From assembly GCA_905339235.1 (NCBI GenBank), contig CAJPFG010000031.1, positions 1 through 64,000 on the forward strand: a DNA stretch of 64,000 nucleotides, given 5' to 3'. The notes under the pieces are model-generated. The model worked only from the letters and a program-made list of their open reading frames with translations, did no database searches and was not told the DNA's origin. This DNA comes from Phycisphaerales bacterium (GTDB taxonomy: Bacteria > Planctomycetota > Phycisphaerae > Phycisphaerales > UBA1924). The translations under genes were made by a program, and so were the position numbers. Within the stretch, counting starts at the first letter, position 1. Every line of letters begins with the position of its first letter. Below are positions 9,760-17,987 of this stretch, piece after piece.

Positions 9760-11253
9760 TTACATCCACCGGCTCACCACCACCTTGCTCTCCGTATAGA
9801 ACTTCACCGCGTCTTCGCCGTTGGCGTGAAGATCGCCGAAGAACGACTGCTTCCACCCCGCGAACGGGAAGACCGCCATCGGCGCCGGCACGCCGACGTT
9901 GATGCCGACCATCCCCACCTGCGCGTGGGTGCGGAAGCGGCGGGCGCTGTAGCCGCTGCTGGTGAAGATGACCGCCATGTTCCCGTAGCGGGAGCGGTTG
10001 AGCGTGGCGAGGGCCGCGTCGAGCGTGTCTTCGCGCATGACGGAGAGGACCGGCCCAAAGATCTCCTCGTCGGCGATCTTCATCCCCGGGCGGACGTTGT
10101 CGAAGATCGTCGGGCCGACGAAGCAGCCCTGGCTTGGCATCGCGGCCTTGCGGCCGTCGAATGTCAGCGTGGCGCCGTCCTGCTCGCCCGAGGCGATGAA
10201 GCCGAGAATTCGCTCCTTGCTGGCGACGTCGATGACCGGGCCCATCCCGACGCCCGCGTCGCAGCCGGGGGCCACCTTGATCTTCTTCGCGGCCTCCACC
10301 AGCCGGGGCACCAGCCATGTGCCCGCATCCCCCACCGCGATCGCCACCGATCCCGCGAGGCACCGCTGGCCGGTGTTGCCGAAGGCCGAGCCAATGACAC
10401 CCTCGATCACGGCGTCCTGGTTGGCATCGGGCATGATCACCATGTAGTTCTTGGCGCCGCACATGCACTGGGCGCGCTTGCCGGCGGCGGTGGCGGTGGT
10501 GTAGATGTGCTTGCCGGCCCGCGTGGAACCGACGAAGGAGACCGCGCGGACATCGTCGTGCGTGATGAGGTAGTCAACCACCTTGGGCCCGCCGGTCACC
10601 AGGTTCAGCACGCCCTTGGGAAGCCCGGCCTCGTGCGCCAACTCGACTTCGCGCACGGCCGAGAGCGGCACCTTCTCGCTGGGCTTGAGCACAAACGTGT
10701 TGCCGCAGGCGATGGCCATGGGCCACATCCACAGCGGGACCATCACGGGGAAGTTGAACGGGGTGATCCCCACGCACACGCCCAGCGGCACGCGGTCCAC
10801 GGTGCTGTCGATGCCCACCCCGCTCTTGTCCTCGGTGCGGCAGAACGAACTGGACACGGCGATCTGCGGCAGGCTCTTGCCCATCATGAGCGTGGGCGCG
10901 GCACAGGCGAACTCGACGCAGTCGATGCCGCGCCGAACATCGCCGCGAGCCTCGGCCAGGGTCTTGCCGTGTTCTTTCACGATCATCCCCGCGAGTTCCT
11001 CGAAGTGCGTTTCGAGGACCTGCTTGTAGCGGAAGAGAAACTGGCAGCGGTCGCCAACGGGCATTGCGGCCCAGGCCGGGAAGGCCTCGCGGGCCGCGGC
11101 GACGGCGTCCTCGGCGGCACGAACGGCCACAAGATCGACCTCGGCGAGCGTCTCGTCGGTCGCGGGATTGACGACGGCGTGCGTGCCGCCGCCGAATGCC
11201 GGGGCGGCCCTCTGGCCGGCGATGAAGTGGTCAACTCGGGTTGGCGCGGTCAT
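9760..11253 (-). CDS. mmsA: CoA-acylating methylmalonate-semialdehyde dehydrogenase
   Basis: 497 aa, aldehyde dehydrogenase superfamily. The start is ATG 11253 (MTAPTRVDHFIAGQ), preceded by GGAGG. The catalytic Cys lies in NTGQRCLAGS, typical of the MMSDH clade, and GITPFNFPVMVPLWMWPMA matches the family's cofactor region. The enzyme converts malonate or methylmalonate semialdehyde plus CoA and NAD+ to acetyl-CoA or propionyl-CoA. That completes breakdown of beta-alanine/beta-aminoisobutyrate produced by the neighbouring aminotransferase; it also serves valine and inositol catabolism elsewhere. First gene of the minus-strand run (9760, 9349, 8470). Confidence 0.88.
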   Translation of the reverse strand: MTAPTRVDHFIAGQRAAPAFGGGTHAVVNPATDETLAEVDLVAVRAAEDAVAAAREAFPAWAAMPVGDRCQFLFRYKQVLETHFEELAGMIVKEHGKTLAEARGDVRRGIDCVEFACAAPTLMMGKSLPQIAVSSSFCRTEDKSGVGIDSTVDRVPLGVCVGITPFNFPVMVPLWMWPMAIACGNTFVLKPSEKVPLSAVREVELAHEAGLPKGVLNLVTGGPKVVDYLITHDDVRAVSFVGSTRAGKHIYTTATAAGKRAQCMCGAKNYMVIMPDANQDAVIEGVIGSAFGNTGQRCLAGSVAIAVGDAGTWLVPRLVEAAKKIKVAPGCDAGVGMGPVIDVASKERILGFIASGEQDGATLTFDGRKAAMPSQGCFVGPTIFDNVRPGMKIADEEIFGPVLSVMREDTLDAALATLNRSRYGNMAVIFTSSGYSARRFRTHAQVGMVGINVGVPAPMAVFPFAGWKQSFFGDLHANGEDAVKFYTESKVVVSRWM

Positions 11254-11480: not shown

Positions 11481-12371
11481 ATGGCACCACGCGCGTACTG
11501 GACCGGTAACCTCAAGATCTCGCTCGTCAGTTTCGGCGTGCGGCTTTACAACGCCGTGTCGGAGGCGGAGAAGGTGCGCCTGAACCAGGTTCACAAGGGC
11601 TGCAACGCGCGGATCAAGATGCCGACGACCTGCCCTATTCACGGGCAGGTGGACCGGTCCGAGATCGTGAAGGCGTACGAGTTCGAGAAGGACAAGTATG
11701 TCGTCATCGAGCAGGAGGAACTGGACAAGATCAAACTCCGCTCGGAGAAGACCATCGAACTGACCAAGTTCGTGCCGGCGGATTCCCTGCGCGACGTGTA
11801 TCTCGATTCGGCGTACTACATGGCGCCCGACGGGCCGGTGGCGGAAGAGCCGTTCCGGGTCGTGCGGGAGGCGCTCGAGAAGACGGGCACCGCGGGGATC
11901 GGAAAACTCACCATCGCCGGAAGGGAGCGGCCCGTGGTGCTGCGCCCGGGGGACAAGGGGTTCACGCTCAACACGCTGCACGCGGCCAACGAGGTTCGCG
12001 ATGCGACGCCGTACTTTGATGAGATCAAGGACGGAGAGGTGAACCAGGAGTACATGCAACTGGCGATGACGCTGATCAAGGGCAAGATGGGGAAGTTCGA
12101 TCCGACGGAGTTCCGGGATCGGTACCAGGACGCGCTGGTCGAACTCGTGAAATCCAAGATTGCGGGGCAGGCGCCGGTGATCATCCAGGAAGAGGAACTG
12201 CCGGCCACGTTCAACTTCGCCGAGGCGCTCAAGCAGAGCCTTGACGGTGTGGGGCGTCCGGCGGAGGAAGCGGTCGCGGCGCCGGCGGGGAAGGCGGCGG
12301 CGAGCGCGAAGAAGCCGCCGGCCAAGAGCGTTCCCGCGGTCGCCAGGAAGCAGAAGAGGAAGCAGGCCTGA
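11481..12371 (+). CDS. ku: Non-homologous end-joining protein Ku
   Basis: 296 aa. The core Ku fold spans residues 1-250 (ARAYWTGNLKISLVSFGVRL; YEFEKDKYVVIEQEELDK; GKLTIAGRERPVVLRPGDKG; NQEYMQLAMTLI). The C-terminal ~40 residues are a Lys/Ala-rich tail, as in other bacterial Ku proteins that bind LigD or DNA through basic extensions. Ku homodimers encircle broken DNA ends and recruit LigD. A GGAG lies 9 nt before the ATG. Its stop codon overlaps the next start by one base (TGATG), indicating translational coupling with the BRCT protein and then LigD. Divergent from mmsA across 227 bp. Confidence 0.93.
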   Translation: MAPRAYWTGNLKISLVSFGVRLYNAVSEAEKVRLNQVHKGCNARIKMPTTCPIHGQVDRSEIVKAYEFEKDKYVVIEQEELDKIKLRSEKTIELTKFVPADSLRDVYLDSAYYMAPDGPVAEEPFRVVREALEKTGTAGIGKLTIAGRERPVVLRPGDKGFTLNTLHAANEVRDATPYFDEIKDGEVNQEYMQLAMTLIKGKMGKFDPTEFRDRYQDALVELVKSKIAGQAPVIIQEEELPATFNFAEALKQSLDGVGRPAEEAVAAPAGKAAASAKKPPAKSVPAVARKQKRKQA

Positions 12372-13570
12372 TGACGCAACCCGCCGGGCAGCAGATCTCG
12401 GGCGAACCGGGCCATCCGGCCGGACTGCTGGGCCAGCGGGTGACCTTCACGGGACGATTCGCGACATTGACGCGTGCGGAAGCCGAGAGGCTCGTGGATC
12501 GCGCCGCCGGGCGGGTGGTTTCGGGCGTGGCGCCGCGCGCGACGATGCTGGTGGTGGGGATGCGCGGCTGGCCGCTCATCGACAGCGGGCGCGTGACCCG
12601 GAAGATCGAGGAGGCGGAGCGGGTGCGGGCGTCGGGCAAGCCGATCCGCATCGTCTCGGAAACGCAGTTCCGCGAGATGCTCGGGTTGGATCCGCCGGCG
12701 AAGAGCGAAACCAAGGCGCTGGATGCGGAGCAGGTGTGCGCGGCGCTCGGGATCGACCGCCGCACGCTGGAGCGGTGGGAACATTGCGGGCTGGTGCGGC
12801 CGCACGCGGGGAAGTACGACTTTCAGGATTTGGTTTCCCTTCGCACCGTGGCGGGGCTGGTGGCCAAGAGCGTGAGCCCGGTGGTGATCCGCAAGAGCCT
12901 GGAAGCGCTGGGCGGATTGCTGCCGGGGATCGATCGGCCGCTGGCGCAACTGAACATTCTTGTTTCCGACAAGGGCGAACTCGTGGCGGAGGTTGAAGAG
13001 GCTCTCTTGACGCAGACCGGGCAACTCGAGATGCGGTTTGATCCGCCCGCGGTGGGAGACGCGGCGGCGCCGTTCACGCTGGTGCCGGGCGAGACTCGCG
13101 ACAGCGCGGGGTGGATCGAAGCAGGGATCGAGCACGAAGCGGTGGGCGATCTGGTGGAGGCGGAGAGCGCGTATCGACGCGCGGCGGCGCTGGCGCCGGA
13201 TGATCCCATCCCGCCGTTCAATCTCGGAAACGTGCTGCTGGCGGCGGGGAAGTTGGAGGCCGCGGCGGAGCGGTTTGCGCAAGCGGCGGCGCTCGATCCA
13301 CGGCACGCGCAGGCGTGGTTCAACCTGGCGCACGTGCAGGACGAACTGAGAGACGGCCGGTCGGCGATGCGGTACTTGCGCCGGGCGATCGCCGTGAACC
13401 CCGCGTTCGCCGATGCGTATTTCAACCTCGCGGAACTCGCGGAACGGCTGGGGGACAAGGAGACGGCCGCGTCGGCGTGGGATGATTACCTGCGGCTCGA
13501 CCCCGCGAGCGAGTGGAGCGCGCTGGCCCGACGCAAACTGGGGGCACTGCGGGGGTTGGCGTGGGCCTGA
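12371..13570 (+). CDS. BRCT - MerR-type HTH - TPR fusion protein in the NHEJ operon
   Basis: 399 aa. Residues ~18-107 form a BRCT domain (LLGQRVTFTGRFATLTRAEA; TMLVVGM; VSETQFREMLGL). Residues ~112-185 are a MerR-like winged HTH (AEQVCAALGIDRRTLERWEH). Residues ~235-395 contain about four TPRs, each with NPA/DP-type junctions (AESAYRRAAALAPDDP, AAERFAQAAALDPRHA, AMRYLRRAIAVNPAFA, AWDDYLRLDPASEW). It overlaps ku by one base at the 5' end and ligD by 10 nt at the 3' end, so it should be made with them. BRCT domains bind phosphoproteins or DNA and TPRs scaffold proteins. An NHEJ scaffold or DNA-bound regulator is my inference. Confidence 0.85.
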   Translation: MTQPAGQQISGEPGHPAGLLGQRVTFTGRFATLTRAEAERLVDRAAGRVVSGVAPRATMLVVGMRGWPLIDSGRVTRKIEEAERVRASGKPIRIVSETQFREMLGLDPPAKSETKALDAEQVCAALGIDRRTLERWEHCGLVRPHAGKYDFQDLVSLRTVAGLVAKSVSPVVIRKSLEALGGLLPGIDRPLAQLNILVSDKGELVAEVEEALLTQTGQLEMRFDPPAVGDAAAPFTLVPGETRDSAGWIEAGIEHEAVGDLVEAESAYRRAAALAPDDPIPPFNLGNVLLAAGKLEAAAERFAQAAALDPRHAQAWFNLAHVQDELRDGRSAMRYLRRAIAVNPAFADAYFNLAELAERLGDKETAASAWDDYLRLDPASEWSALARRKLGALRGLAWA

Positions 13571-16089
13571 GCGAATACCGGCGGAAGCGGGACTTCGCGA
13601 AGACGCCGGAGCCTGAACCGTCGAAGGCGCCCGGCTCGGACGTTCGCCTGTTCACCGTGCAGAAGCACTCCGCCACGAGCCTGCACTACGACCTGCGTCT
13701 GCGGGTGGGCGATGTGCTGAAGAGTTGGGCGGTGCCCAAGGGGCCGAGTTTCGATCCGCGCGAGAAGCGGCTGGCGATCGAGGTGGAGGACCACCCGATC
13801 GATTACGCCGAGTTCGAAGGCGTGATTCCCGAGGACCAGTACGGCGGGGGCACGGTCATGCTGTGGGACCGCGGGCGCTGGTTGCCGGAGGGCGACGCGG
13901 CCAAGGGCCTGAAGGACGGGATGCTCAAGTTCCGGCTGGAGGGTGAGCGGCTGAAGGGGCGCTGGATGCTGGTGCGCACGAAGCGCGGCGACAAGCACCC
14001 GCAGTGGCTGCTGGTGAAAGAGCGGGACTCCGAAGCAAGCGCGGGCGTGCACGCGGAGACGTTCGCGACCAGCGTGGCCTCGGGGCGGACGATGGACGAG
14101 ATCGCGGCGGGGGCAAAGCCGCGGGCCGCGGCGCGGGATGCGAAGGAGGGCCCGAAGGCCTCCGCGCTGAAGGGCGCCCGGGCGGGGCCGATGCCGTCGA
14201 GGATCAAGCCGCAACTGGCCTCGCCCGCCGACGTGGCGCCGGAGGGAGATGACTGGTTTCACGAAGTGAAGTTCGACGGGTATCGGCTGCTGATCTTCCG
14301 GCGGGGAGACTCGGTCAAGATTCAGAGCCGCAACGGGCTGGATTGGACGGCGAAACTCCCGGACCTTGCGGCGGCGGTCGGGGAGCGATTGCGGGTTGAC
14401 GCGGTGATCGACGGTGAGGCCGTGGTGCTGGACACGCGCGGGATCAGCAACTTTCAGGCGCTCCAGAACGCGATCCACAGCCGGCGTGCAAAGTCGATCG
14501 TGTTTTTCGCGTTCGATCTGCCGTGGTGCGACGGGCAGGACCTGATGAAGTCACCGCTCGAGCAGCGGCGTGCGTTGCTGTCCGAGTTGATCGGCTCGCG
14601 GCAGGAGGGCCGCCTGCGGTTCAGCGAGCACATCGCGGGGAACGGGCCCGAGGCATTCGATCGCGTGTGCCAGGGCGGGCTGGAGGGGATCGTCTCAAAG
14701 CGCCGGGGATCGGTGTACTCGCAGACCCGCACGCCCGCGTGGGTCAAGGTGAAGTGCTTCAACCAGCAGGAGTTCGTGGTCGGCGGGTTCAGCGAGCCGG
14801 AGGGAGCGCGGGAGCAGTTCGGCGCGATGCTGCTGGGGTACTACGACGACGACGGATCGCTGCGGTTCGCCGGAAAGGTCGGGACGGGCTTCAGCGCGGA
14901 GACGCTCAAGAAACTCGGAACCAAACTCCGGGGACTCGCCACGGCCAGGCCGCCGTTTGTCAATCCCCCCACCGGCGCGGATGCGCGCGGCGTGACGTGG
15001 GTGCGGCCGGAACTGGTCGCGCAGGTTCAGTTTCGCGATTGGACCACCGAGGGCGTGGTCCGCCACACGTCGTTCCGAGGCCTGCGCGAGGACCTCGATC
15101 CAACTACCGTCGTTCGCCAGCCTTCACGAACCGCGGAGGCGGAGACGCCCGCTCCGAAGAAGCCGCGGGTTGTCAAGAAGACACCCGCACCCGCTCCACC
15201 GCCATCGGCGGCGTTGCCGCGGCTGACCAGCCCGGACCGGATCGCTTTTCCCGATCGCGGCGGGGGGTATTCGCTCACGAAACGGCAGGTGGCCGAGTAC
15301 TACGAGGCGGTCGCGCCGAGGATGCTCCCGCACGTCGCGGATCGCCCGCTCGCGATTCTGCGTTGTCCCGATGGTGAAGGGGGCAACTGCTTCTTCCAGA
15401 AGCACCCGGCCAAGGGCATGCCCACTGCGGTCGAGGGCGTGGAGGTACCGACCGACGATGGGAAGAGCGAACGGCACCTGGTCATCCGCGACGCGGCGGG
15501 GCTGCTGGGGCTGGTTCAGATGAACGCGCTGGAGTTCCATCCGTGGGGGGCGAAGGCGGGCACGGTCGAGACGCCGGACCGGCTGGTGTTCGACCTCGAT
15601 CCGGGGCCGGGCGTGATGTGGAGGCAGACGGTCGAGGGCGCGGTGATGGTGCGCGATGCGTTGGCCCAACTGAAACTGCGCGGCTTCGCGAGGCTGTCGG
15701 GAGGAAAGGGAATCCACATCGTCGTTCCGGTAAAGGGCGATCACACGTGGGAGCAGGCGAAGGCCTTCAGCCGGGCCGTGGCGGAAACGCTGGTCAAGAT
15801 GGCGCCGCGCCGGTTCGTCGCGACGGCGGGTGTTCACAGCCGCGAGGGGCGGATCTTCATCGACTACCTGCGCAACGCGCGCGGAGCGACGGCGATCGCC
15901 CCGTACAGCACGCGGGCGCGGCCGGGTGCGCCGGTGGCGCTGCCGGTGGCGTGGGATGAACTAGCGGGATTGGAGTCGGCGAGTGCGTTCAGCACGGCCG
16001 CGGTCGTGCGGAGGCTGGCTTCCGGATCACCGGACCCGTGGGAAGCGATGCCGAGCGCGGCGGGAACGCTGCCGCGGCGGGGGCGGTGA
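13561..16089 (+). CDS. ligD: Multifunctional DNA ligase D (phosphoesterase - ligase - polymerase)
   Basis: 842 aa with the PE-LIG-POL order known from Pseudomonas LigD. PE domain (~20-150): FTVQKHSATSLHYDLRL and EDHPIDYAEFEG supply the His/Asp/Arg/Glu set. Ligase domain (~215-520): adenylated Lys237 in EVKFDGYR, GIVSKRRGS and WVKVKC motifs, then an OB fold. POL domain (~545-830): YYEAVAPRMLPHVADRPLA, FDLDPGPG acidic motif, SGGKGIHIVVP. A Pro/Lys-rich linker joins LIG and POL. The GTG at 13561 is chosen because it starts inside the preceding gene, 10 nt before its stop; an in-frame upstream ATG would overlap more. It processes, fills and ligates breaks bound by Ku. Confidence 0.93.
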   Translation: MGLSEYRRKRDFAKTPEPEPSKAPGSDVRLFTVQKHSATSLHYDLRLRVGDVLKSWAVPKGPSFDPREKRLAIEVEDHPIDYAEFEGVIPEDQYGGGTVMLWDRGRWLPEGDAAKGLKDGMLKFRLEGERLKGRWMLVRTKRGDKHPQWLLVKERDSEASAGVHAETFATSVASGRTMDEIAAGAKPRAAARDAKEGPKASALKGARAGPMPSRIKPQLASPADVAPEGDDWFHEVKFDGYRLLIFRRGDSVKIQSRNGLDWTAKLPDLAAAVGERLRVDAVIDGEAVVLDTRGISNFQALQNAIHSRRAKSIVFFAFDLPWCDGQDLMKSPLEQRRALLSELIGSRQEGRLRFSEHIAGNGPEAFDRVCQGGLEGIVSKRRGSVYSQTRTPAWVKVKCFNQQEFVVGGFSEPEGAREQFGAMLLGYYDDDGSLRFAGKVGTGFSAETLKKLGTKLRGLATARPPFVNPPTGADARGVTWVRPELVAQVQFRDWTTEGVVRHTSFRGLREDLDPTTVVRQPSRTAEAETPAPKKPRVVKKTPAPAPPPSAALPRLTSPDRIAFPDRGGGYSLTKRQVAEYYEAVAPRMLPHVADRPLAILRCPDGEGGNCFFQKHPAKGMPTAVEGVEVPTDDGKSERHLVIRDAAGLLGLVQMNALEFHPWGAKAGTVETPDRLVFDLDPGPGVMWRQTVEGAVMVRDALAQLKLRGFARLSGGKGIHIVVPVKGDHTWEQAKAFSRAVAETLVKMAPRRFVATAGVHSREGRIFIDYLRNARGATAIAPYSTRARPGAPVALPVAWDELAGLESASAFSTAAVVRRLASGSPDPWEAMPSAAGTLPRRGR

Positions 16090-16238: not shown

Positions 16239-16318
16239 GGCCTATAGATACATTTTTGACGCAAAATCGAATCATCGGCTGGACTGTTGATTTAAATAGG
16301 CAGACTATTTAGCCTATG
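16239..16318. promoter_or_regulatory. Candidate AbiE control region with GCCTAT repeats
   Basis: A locally AT-rich stretch contains GGCCTATA (16239-16246), ATAGGC (16296-16301) and AGCCTATG (16311-16318). The last overlaps the antitoxin ATG at 16316. AbiEi proteins are known to autoregulate by binding inverted repeats upstream of their genes, so these are candidate operators. Confidence 0.4.
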
Positions 16319-17074
16319 GGGCGAAATCCGCGACATAGTCTAATCAAGCGACTCCAGGCCGAAATGCCCCGGGGTCGTCCGTTCGACGTGGCCAGCCTGA
16401 CCGCGCTCGGCGTCGCTCCGCAGCTCGCGGCCCGGTACGCCAAGCACGGCTGGCTCGTCCGGCTCGGCCAAGGCGTGTACAGCTTCCCTGGCGACGAGTT
16501 GACGCGGGATGGCTGCGTGCTGCTCCTCCAGCAACGGGTGGAAGGACTCCACGTCGGGGGCAAGAGCGCCCTCGCGCTGCACGCGGTGCGCCACAATCTC
16601 ACCGTGCGAGACACGCTCGTCTTGTGGGGCGACCGGAGATTCGTGCTGCCGGAGTGGTTCACGTCACGATTCCCCTCCCGCTACCTCTCCGCCAAGCTCT
16701 TCGAGTGGCCCGACGCAAAGCTCGCGACCGCTACGCTCTCGTCACCGGCCGGCGCCACAGACCGACTTCTCGCCTCAACTCCTGAGCGAGCGGCGCTGGA
16801 GATGCTCTACGAGGTGGGAACGAACCAGGGCATGGAGGAAGCCAGAAACCTCTTCGAGGGTCTCCGCAACCTCCGCAAGGATGTCGCCGGGCAATTGCTC
16901 GCGGCATGCACGAGCGTGAAGTCGGTCCGACTCTTCCTGACATGGTCGCGGCAAACGGGCGTGCTGGATGTCGATACCCTCCGTGAACACTACCGACTGC
17001 GGGTCGGGAGTGAGAACCGCTGGATGGCACGATTCAAGGACGGCACGCTCCTCAGCCTCAAGCAGTATGGATAA
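16316..17074 (+). CDS. AbiEi-family antitoxin (type IV toxin-antitoxin)
   Basis: 252 aa. The N-terminal winged helix (residues ~5-60: SLIKRLQAEMPRGRPFDVAS...YAKHGWLVRLGQGVYSF) is the usual AbiEi antitoxin domain. The following region (LHVGGKSALALHAVRHNL; WFTSRFPSRYLSAKLFEW) matches the AbiEi_3 C-terminal fold. AbiEi represses its own operon and counteracts an AbiEii nucleotidyltransferase without direct binding. Its stop overlaps the toxin ATG by 8 nt. Abortive phage infection is the known role of AbiE systems. Nothing looks damaged in this gene although its toxin partner is interrupted. Transferred origin is suggested by the AT-rich promoter and the tRNA-proximal location. Confidence 0.82.
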   Translation: MGRNPRHSLIKRLQAEMPRGRPFDVASLTALGVAPQLAARYAKHGWLVRLGQGVYSFPGDELTRDGCVLLLQQRVEGLHVGGKSALALHAVRHNLTVRDTLVLWGDRRFVLPEWFTSRFPSRYLSAKLFEWPDAKLATATLSSPAGATDRLLASTPERAALEMLYEVGTNQGMEEARNLFEGLRNLRKDVAGQLLAACTSVKSVRLFLTWSRQTGVLDVDTLREHYRLRVGSENRWMARFKDGTLLSLKQYG

Positions 17075-17987
17075 GGCGTACGCCGACACCGTCCGACTCC
17101 TCCTCACCGTCGCGCCGGACGTCTTCCGGAACCCGGCGTTCGCCATGAAGGGCGGCACGGCGATCAACATGTTCGTGCGGGACATGCCGTGACTCTCGGT
17201 CGACATCGATGTCGTCTACACCCCATGGAACGTGCGCCGAGACGAGGCCCTCGCCACGATCACGGCCGAGCTCACTGCCATCAGCGAACGGCTCACGCGC
17301 TCCGGCCTCTCGGTCAACACCGTCGGGAAAACCGACACCGGGGACCGCACGCTCCTGGTGAGCGGCGGCGTCAGCGTGGTGAAGGTGGAAGTCAACATCG
17401 TCTTCCGGGGCACGGTCCTCCCGGTGCAGAAGCGCTCCTTGGTGACGAGCGCCGCCGACACGTTCGCCGCTGAGTTGGAACTGCCCGTCCTGGACATCGA
17501 CGAGCTGTACGGGAGCAAGCTGGTCGCGGCGATGGACCGACAGCACCCGCGGGACCTCTTCGACGTGTGGGAGATGTACAAGGCCGGCGGGCTCACCGAC
17601 GAGATGGTCGGGTGCTTCGTGACGTACCTGGCCGGGCACAGTCGTCCGATGCACGAAGTGCTCTTCGGCCGTCAGAAGGACATCTCTCAGGAGTATCGCA
17701 CGACGTTCGTCGGCCTGACCACGCAGGACGTGGCACTCGAAACACTTGTGGAGACACGGGAACGACTGTTCAAAGAGCTCCCCGAACGATTGAACGCCAA
17801 CCACCGAACGTTCCTCATCGGTCTGGCCCGTGCCGAACCCGAATGGTCGCTGCTCAAGTGCCCGCACGCCGCGAGTCTGCCGGCCCTCCAGTGGAAGCTG
17901 ATCAACCTGCAGAAGCTGAGACAGTCCAAGCCGGAGAAGTTGCACGAACAGGCAAATGCTCTCGAACAACGTTTCCAAAAGGTTTGA
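17067..17987 (+). pseudogene. AbiEii-family nucleotidyltransferase toxin with in-frame TGA
   Basis: The reading frame of 306 codons from ATG 17067 is interrupted by a single TGA at codon 42 (17190-17192). Before it: AFAMKGGTAINMFVRDMP; after it: LSVDIDVVYTP. Intact homologues read ...DMPRLSxDIDx..., so a CGA Arg to TGA change in the catalytic GG...DID signature is the simplest cause. Everything downstream is intact: VKVEVNIVF, DELYGSKLVAAMDRQHPRDLFDV, C-terminal helical domain. AbiEii toxins modify tRNA or other targets with nucleotides. As it stands the protein would be a 41-aa fragment, or a version lacking the N-terminus from a downstream start that would lack GG. Sequencing error is an alternative. 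Confidence 0.82.

Follow-up and report, generated by a model that had tools for sequence, protein, structure and literature searches.

We identified a gene encoding a protein with a BRCT domain, a MerR-type helix-turn-helix (HTH) domain, and tetratricopeptide repeats (TPRs) between ku and ligD in a 64,000-nucleotide stretch of DNA from a Phycisphaerales bacterium (GCA_905339235.1, contig CAJPFG010000031.1, positions 1 to 64,000 of the forward strand; hereafter the window). Bacterial nonhomologous end joining (NHEJ) is usually described as a system of two proteins, Ku and LigD. The coordinates confirmed the two gene overlaps of the original prediction: the final base of the ku stop codon (12369-12371) is also the first base of the ATG (12371-12373) that opens the middle gene (TGATG), and ligD, read from its GTG at 13561, begins before the middle gene has ended, with an overlap of 10 nt. 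The latter figure depends on this choice of ligD start, since the reading frame of ligD can be extended as far as GTG 13513; we preferred 13561 because the N terminus of a homologous LigD is MAKPLDEYQRKRDF and GLSEYRRKRDF is encoded in the window directly after that position. Ten other matches to the middle protein were detected in its genome (94% complete), all of them from residue 210 onward in the TPR half. The placement of the BRCT-MerR-TPR gene between ku and ligD is a solid observation, and its linkage to NHEJ genes is real and extends beyond the window. The features of the locus are listed in Table 1 together with sets of related loci discussed below.

Table 1. Features of the ku-ligD region in the window and sets of related loci
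Feature	Position in window or locus codes	Strand	Evidence or remarks
ku (bacterial Ku, 296 aa)	11481..12371	+	TIGR02772, 1.1e-74, 251 bits; sole Ku match of the genome
BRCT-MerR-TPR protein gene (399 aa)	12371..13570	+	no second full-length copy in the genome; predicted model with a mean pLDDT of 79.7
BRCT domain, RFC1/LigA class (~residues 14-108; T27, G28, R35, K78)	12410..12694	+	profile match and predicted fold
MerR-type HTH (~residues 118-183)	12722..12919	+	MerR_1; superposition on GlnR and TnrA DNA-binding domains
Conserved linker with invariant GQ (residues 217-218)	12920..13045	+	alignment; fold prediction of low confidence
Four TPRs (~residues 245-393)	13103..13549	+	Pfam TPR models; predicted model
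ligD, PE - ligase (intact KFDG) - primase/polymerase (842 aa)	13561..16089	+	NF004628, 993 bits
Lysine-less LigDs	L058, L067, L068, L071, L083, L085, L093, L125, L127, L128, L172, L181, L182
Loci with a Ku-Lig-type stand-alone ligase and the BRCT-MerR-TPR protein (n = 17)	L058, L060, L062, L067, L068, L069, L071, L083, L085, L093, L172, L125, L127, L128, L129, L134, L136

The predicted combination of BRCT, MerR-type HTH, and TPR domains held up upon closer analysis. Pfam recognized MerR_1 at 25.8 bits (cut-off, 21.6) and several TPR models above their cut-offs, with no Pfam match to a BRCT domain in the 399-residue protein. The BRCT domain was instead supported by profile and fold comparisons. 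NF004844 matched this region at 2e-12 and 47 bits, which is below the whole-protein cut-off of 373 for that model. A profile of 12 BRCT domains of the family gave E values of 3.7e-9 for the human RFC1 BRCT and 3.8e-6 to 3.2e-4 for LigA BRCTs, and the window BRCT searched alone returned six weak matches, five of which were to RFC1 (0.0075 to 0.093). Because TPR proteins took up the hit list of a Foldseek search with the full model, we modelled and searched the N-terminal half (residues 1-225; pLDDT 81) separately; RFC1 BRCTs ranked at the top of this search, yet nothing fell below an E value of 1e-3. This model superposed on the RFC1 BRCT with a moderate Z of 8.2 (79 residues, 2.2 Å) and, with a Z of 8.9, on a modelled DnlJ ligase (9a6z) at its BRCT end. 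By sequence and predicted fold, the BRCT of the middle protein is nearest to the single-domain RFC1/LigA class, and not to the ligase IV and polymerase mu BRCTs to which it had originally been likened.

T27, G28, and R35 of the window protein align with Rfc1 Thr166, Gly167, and Arg174, which together with Lys209 are described as holding the DNA 5'-phosphate (PMC9359705). The counterpart of Lys209 is probably K78, judging from its place at the start of a predicted helix (residues 77-87). In 20 BRCT rows of the Ku clade, the threonine was kept in 18, the glycine in all 20, and the arginine in 17, with histidine in the other three. Unlike RFC1 and LigA, the window protein has no clamp loader or NAD ligase attached, and its family retains the lysine in only a minority of the rows (see below). 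These patterns make binding of a 5'-phosphate end by the window protein plausible, and not a fixed trait of the family.

The HTH resembles those of the MerR regulators GlnR, TnrA, and SoxR in matching MerR_1 above cut-off, and residues 108-187 superposed on the DNA-binding domains of GlnR and TnrA with a moderate Z of 7.2-7.3, values below 8 in such comparisons possibly meaning only a shared common arrangement. In contrast to these regulators, no effector domain of that family was recognized in the window protein, which carries BRCT and TPR domains and whose HTH lacks about 5 residues of the wing region that are present in its relatives (alignment A2). The region following the HTH (residues 184-241), where MerR regulators have a dimerization helix and an effector domain, was predicted at low confidence. 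TPRs are generic protein-binding arms.

As the original prediction had proposed, we surveyed planctomycete Ku loci for relatives of this protein, searching 392 planctomycete genomes with residues 1-245 of the window protein. Matches, many of them short, were found in 68 genomes, and we read the neighborhoods of 55 of the other 67 over stretches of up to ~10 kb per side (less at contig ends), leaving out 12 with short or weak matches. Ku was encoded within ~4 kb upstream in 13 of these 55 neighborhoods, in addition to the window. A search for Ku across the 392 genomes gave 47 positive genomes (45 above cut-off), and opening the remaining Ku loci revealed six more with an adjoining relative, five being MerR-TPR proteins without BRCT (G013, G042, G063, G132, and G125) and one a second, BRCT-bearing copy (G216). 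In total, a relative was encoded downstream of Ku in 20 of the 47 Ku-positive genomes, a linkage beyond chance, and these 20 genomes cover 15 family codes. Nine of these 20 genes were directly behind Ku, 11 had a stand-alone ligase in between, and 13 encoded a BRCT domain. The Ku of one linked genome (G264) is a fragment only, and in another (G045) the protein is encoded ~2 kb behind the ligase.

In all 25 loci chosen as linked, the gene followed Ku or the ligase and was transcribed in the same direction, an arrangement that also reflects how the loci were selected. A possible start codon overlapped the preceding stop codon by 4 nt in eight of the 25 and by 1 nt in another. We observed linkage alongside an intact LigD (the window, G016, and G058), alongside a stand-alone ligase with an apparently dead LigD, and alongside the f20 type of LigD. 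An exact-pattern scan of a genome contig collection, which provided our coverage of phyla beyond Planctomycetota and which distant forms would escape, detected 13 relatives over most of the query, all on contigs titled Planctomycetota or "bacterium." Eleven of these were behind Ku and one was behind a ligase at a contig end; six were already among the sampled genomes, and the seven new ones comprised six linked and one unlinked. One scan of viral contigs detected no relative, and plasmids gave partial matches (32-61% of the query) in three records, two annotated as BRCT proteins. Four Planotetraspora matches were dropped, as they covered the MerR part only; their loci had no Ku or ligase match.

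Many linked loci differ from the window in encoding a stand-alone ATP ligase with a KWDG motif, composed of an adenylation and a C-terminal domain in the one we scanned, between Ku and the BRCT-MerR-TPR protein, with ligD encoded close by or on a different contig. All 13 LigDs readable in genomes or loci that have this stand-alone ligase had lost the motif I lysine (replaced by E, R, D, S, G, or T), whereas it was kept in 12 of 12 fused LigDs, including that of the window, from loci without that ligase. These counts exclude the LigD of G264, whose ligase part was left unread, that of G035, represented by a ligase fragment on a short contig, the L147 fragment, and the f16 and f39 split sets. 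In ten such genomes searched, the ligase-model match ended at position 180-185 of 302, so that the C-terminal part is gone, and the polymerase match remained full length; the PE domain was matched in 11 such loci. Two of the ten (G045 and G203) also hold another, more distant ATP-ligase match elsewhere. The ten lysine-less LigDs with a polymerase domain in the tree formed one branch (93/94), and the loss of the lysine was probably one old event that has since been maintained. Because these ten polymerase domains form one group, the 13-versus-12 contrast would largely reflect that single event, and a Fisher p value for it was set aside since it ignores shared ancestry. Thus, in one lineage, the ligase domain of LigD looks dead from its sequence, with a separate ligase encoded beside the BRCT-MerR-TPR protein. 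As 16 of the 17 loci in which the stand-alone ligase and this protein co-occur were found via the protein and one (L172) via Ku, the co-occurrence says little about how strictly the two are paired.

We constructed a family tree of 52 rows, leaving out three BRCT-only matches (L086, L091, and L092) and one match that was not refound (L090). One split (100/98) divided 17 rows, 14 of them Ku-linked, from 35 rows of f31, f72, and f98. The 26 f31 members of the latter group are L039-L052, L054, L055, L059, L061, L063-L066, L073, and L087-L089; 19 of these copies are divergent from a serine hydroxymethyltransferase gene (one representative identified), nine of the 19 belonging to genus g79. Another relative (L070:8268-10916) is encoded co-directionally between radC and efp. 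Searches by tblastn with parts of the window Ku and LigD around the f31, f72, and f98 copies detected no hidden NHEJ link in the fetched stretches. In a separate tree of 50 Ku rows, which omitted the G264 fragment as too short, grouping the 19 linked Kus as one clade was rejected (p-AU, 0.00026; this tree holds two long branches). Since the linked Kus do not form one clade, the association is not confined to a single Ku background. The tandem Ku gene pairs of G178 and G149 (L177 and L178) are on long branches of this tree.

Considering that its domains and the overlaps of its gene with the Ku and ligase genes favor an adaptor acting at the break, we tentatively propose, at somewhat less than an even chance, that the BRCT-MerR-TPR protein serves as an accessory adaptor in NHEJ and is produced jointly with Ku and the ligase that does the joining. 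The observations behind this proposal are the operon position, the overlaps, the domain make-up, the recurrent linkage, and the company of a rearranged ligase. From these we infer contact with DNA by the BRCT and HTH domains and the holding of partners by the TPRs. In such a mechanism, the BRCT, whose class holds the 5'-phosphate in Rfc1, and the MerR-type HTH would contact DNA at or near the break, and the TPR arm would hold Ku, LigD, or the stand-alone ligase, thereby keeping the sealing enzyme at the Ku-bound end. Where a separate ligase accompanies a LigD with a dead ligase domain, the adaptor may help to compensate for the lost covalent connection of end processing to sealing; in the window, where LigD is intact, it would be a helper and not a necessity. 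The protein would then be an undescribed accessory component of bacterial NHEJ, with a putative mechanism. A more specific version, in which the protein is an end-joining scaffold whose BRCT grips the 5'-phosphate end and whose TPRs hold the ligase and Ku, replacing the covalent link in one lineage, appears unlikely in this full form. If true, it would describe a bacterial NHEJ of three or four proteins, one of them a nonenzymatic scaffold, parallel to the eukaryotic design and of independent origin. More generally, a recurrent third protein whose domains are of DNA-end-binding and adaptor type, together with a lineage whose fused ligase was seemingly swapped for a separate one beside that protein, would show how bacteria rebuild a multiprotein end-joining complex.

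Several findings weigh against the adaptor proposal. MerR-type HTHs usually regulate transcription. Seven of the 20 linked relatives (G025, G100, and the five MerR-TPR forms) have no BRCT, so that this domain cannot be an obligatory scaffold part; overall, the original prediction was supported in part, namely in its domain architecture, its gene overlaps, and a recurring Ku link. The lysine corresponding to K78 was kept in just 6 of the 20 Ku-clade BRCT rows, and all four phosphate-pocket residues were present in 3 of 20. No such neighbor was found in 27 of the 47 Ku-positive genomes, several of whose contigs end close to Ku, and in G002, from the same family as the window, Ku and an intact LigD are direct neighbors with no such protein between them. 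One relative from the pattern scan (L130) has neither Ku nor ligase within 7 kb. G216 (100% complete) encodes the protein beside Ku (L176:7216-9322) with no match to NHEJ-ligase or LigD-polymerase models, and its partner there would have to be Ku alone. Split NHEJ sets can also do without the protein, since the f16 genomes G252 and G174 do not have it and encode, near Ku, a KWDG ligase, a polymerase, and a PE as separate proteins. Four f39 loci are a further counterexample: a different ligase (KMDG/KVDG) adjoins Ku, and the protein is absent from the 6-10 kb read. On the family tree, Ku was near none of the 35 rows of the f31, f72, and f98 group in the stretches read, and 32 of the 35 genomes gave no Ku match (the exceptions being G087, G216, and G369), indicating that the family is not NHEJ-only and that the Ku-linked forms are a related set. 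Three rows on the Ku side (L056, L070, and L084) are themselves unlinked to Ku. The original prediction had named homologues scattered away from NHEJ genes as evidence against it; such homologues make up 35 of the 52 rows, and the other side of the tree is largely Ku-linked (14 of 17).

Among the alternatives, the main rival is that the protein is the operon's own transcription regulator, with the HTH binding ahead of ku and the BRCT and TPR domains sensing breaks or a partner to switch on the NHEJ genes. We consider this a serious possibility that is nonetheless doubtful. The MerR_1 score and the superposition on DNA-bound GlnR and TnrA suit a regulator, as does the retention of the operon position by MerR-TPR forms that are without BRCT. 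Against it, the wing region of the window copy is shortened, and the only paired arms within the 200 nt preceding ku are weak ones, a 9-nt pair (89%) with a spacing of 26 nt and another of 7 nt. No sigma-70-like promoter was found, with just 0.2 expected in shuffled sequences; the missing promoter match and the want of a convincing dyad are a weak negative. The downstream, co-directional position in the 25 chosen loci is compatible with adaptor and regulator alike.

The Ku-unlinked relatives bear more on a different explanation, that the protein is a general planctomycete adaptor or regulator recruited beside Ku for co-expression and that its work is not specific to NHEJ. The 35 of 52 rows without Ku nearby, the divergent pairing of 19 of 26 f31 copies with the serine hydroxymethyltransferase gene (9 of 19 from one genus), the relative between radC and efp, and the G216 copy beside Ku without LigD would all fit this explanation. 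Against this, Ku-linked forms cluster on the tree, comprising 14 of 17 rows on one side and 0 of 35 on the other, and several of them, from different families, have possible starts overlapping the preceding stop; we regard general recruitment as decidedly unlikely. Least probable, in our judgment, is a pure protein bridge without DNA contact, in which the MerR-like domain would be a protein-binding module like CbpM on the CbpA J-domain. The CbpM chain 3ucs_B aligned with a Z of 6.3, tied with many others, and variation at K78 among relatives also speaks for such a bridge; however, the GlnR and TnrA DNA-binding domains, at 7.2-7.3, are within 1 Z and thus tied with it, and, within the BRCT pocket, 18 of 20 rows retain the threonine and all 20 the glycine.

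Compared to the canonical bacterial Ku-LigD system, the window locus has the same Ku (TIGR02772), a LigD with PE, ligase, and polymerase domains, and overlapping genes, but differs in the extra BRCT-MerR-TPR protein, and one lineage additionally has a lysine-less LigD and an added stand-alone ligase. Archaea and Streptomyces likewise have split, Ku-based NHEJ sets that include a stand-alone ligase (PMC4245934, PMC1378119), whereas in the planctomycete lineage the PE and polymerase domains stay fused via the lysine-less ligase domain and an adaptor-like protein is added. Stand-alone NHEJ enzymes have been described in other organisms (PMC4245934, PMC1378119), and a 2006 review leaves open, in its discussion of these enzymes, whether they interact in trans (PMC1378119). 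Ku operons with a stand-alone ligase and the BRCT-MerR-TPR protein provide a concrete case for this question. The eukaryotic scaffold XRCC4 is nonenzymatic and acts with a repair ligase. XRCC1 is described as a nonenzymatic scaffold with a BRCT that also acts with a repair ligase (PMC6334254). We claim no sequence relation of the middle protein to XRCC1 or XRCC4, whose domain order and BRCT class are unlike its own. Among the titles and abstract openings searched, with subscription papers and preprints outside the scope, none described a BRCT-MerR-TPR protein of NHEJ operons, and the main text of a comparative survey of bacterial NHEJ (PMC7719229) contains neither "planctomyc" nor "brct."

The genes flanking the ku-ligD region in the window include an AbiEi/AbiEii type IV toxin-antitoxin-like pair directly downstream of ligD (16316-17987, + strand). 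On the other side, an aldehyde dehydrogenase family gene (9760-11253, - strand) points away from ku, with a short divergent region between the two.

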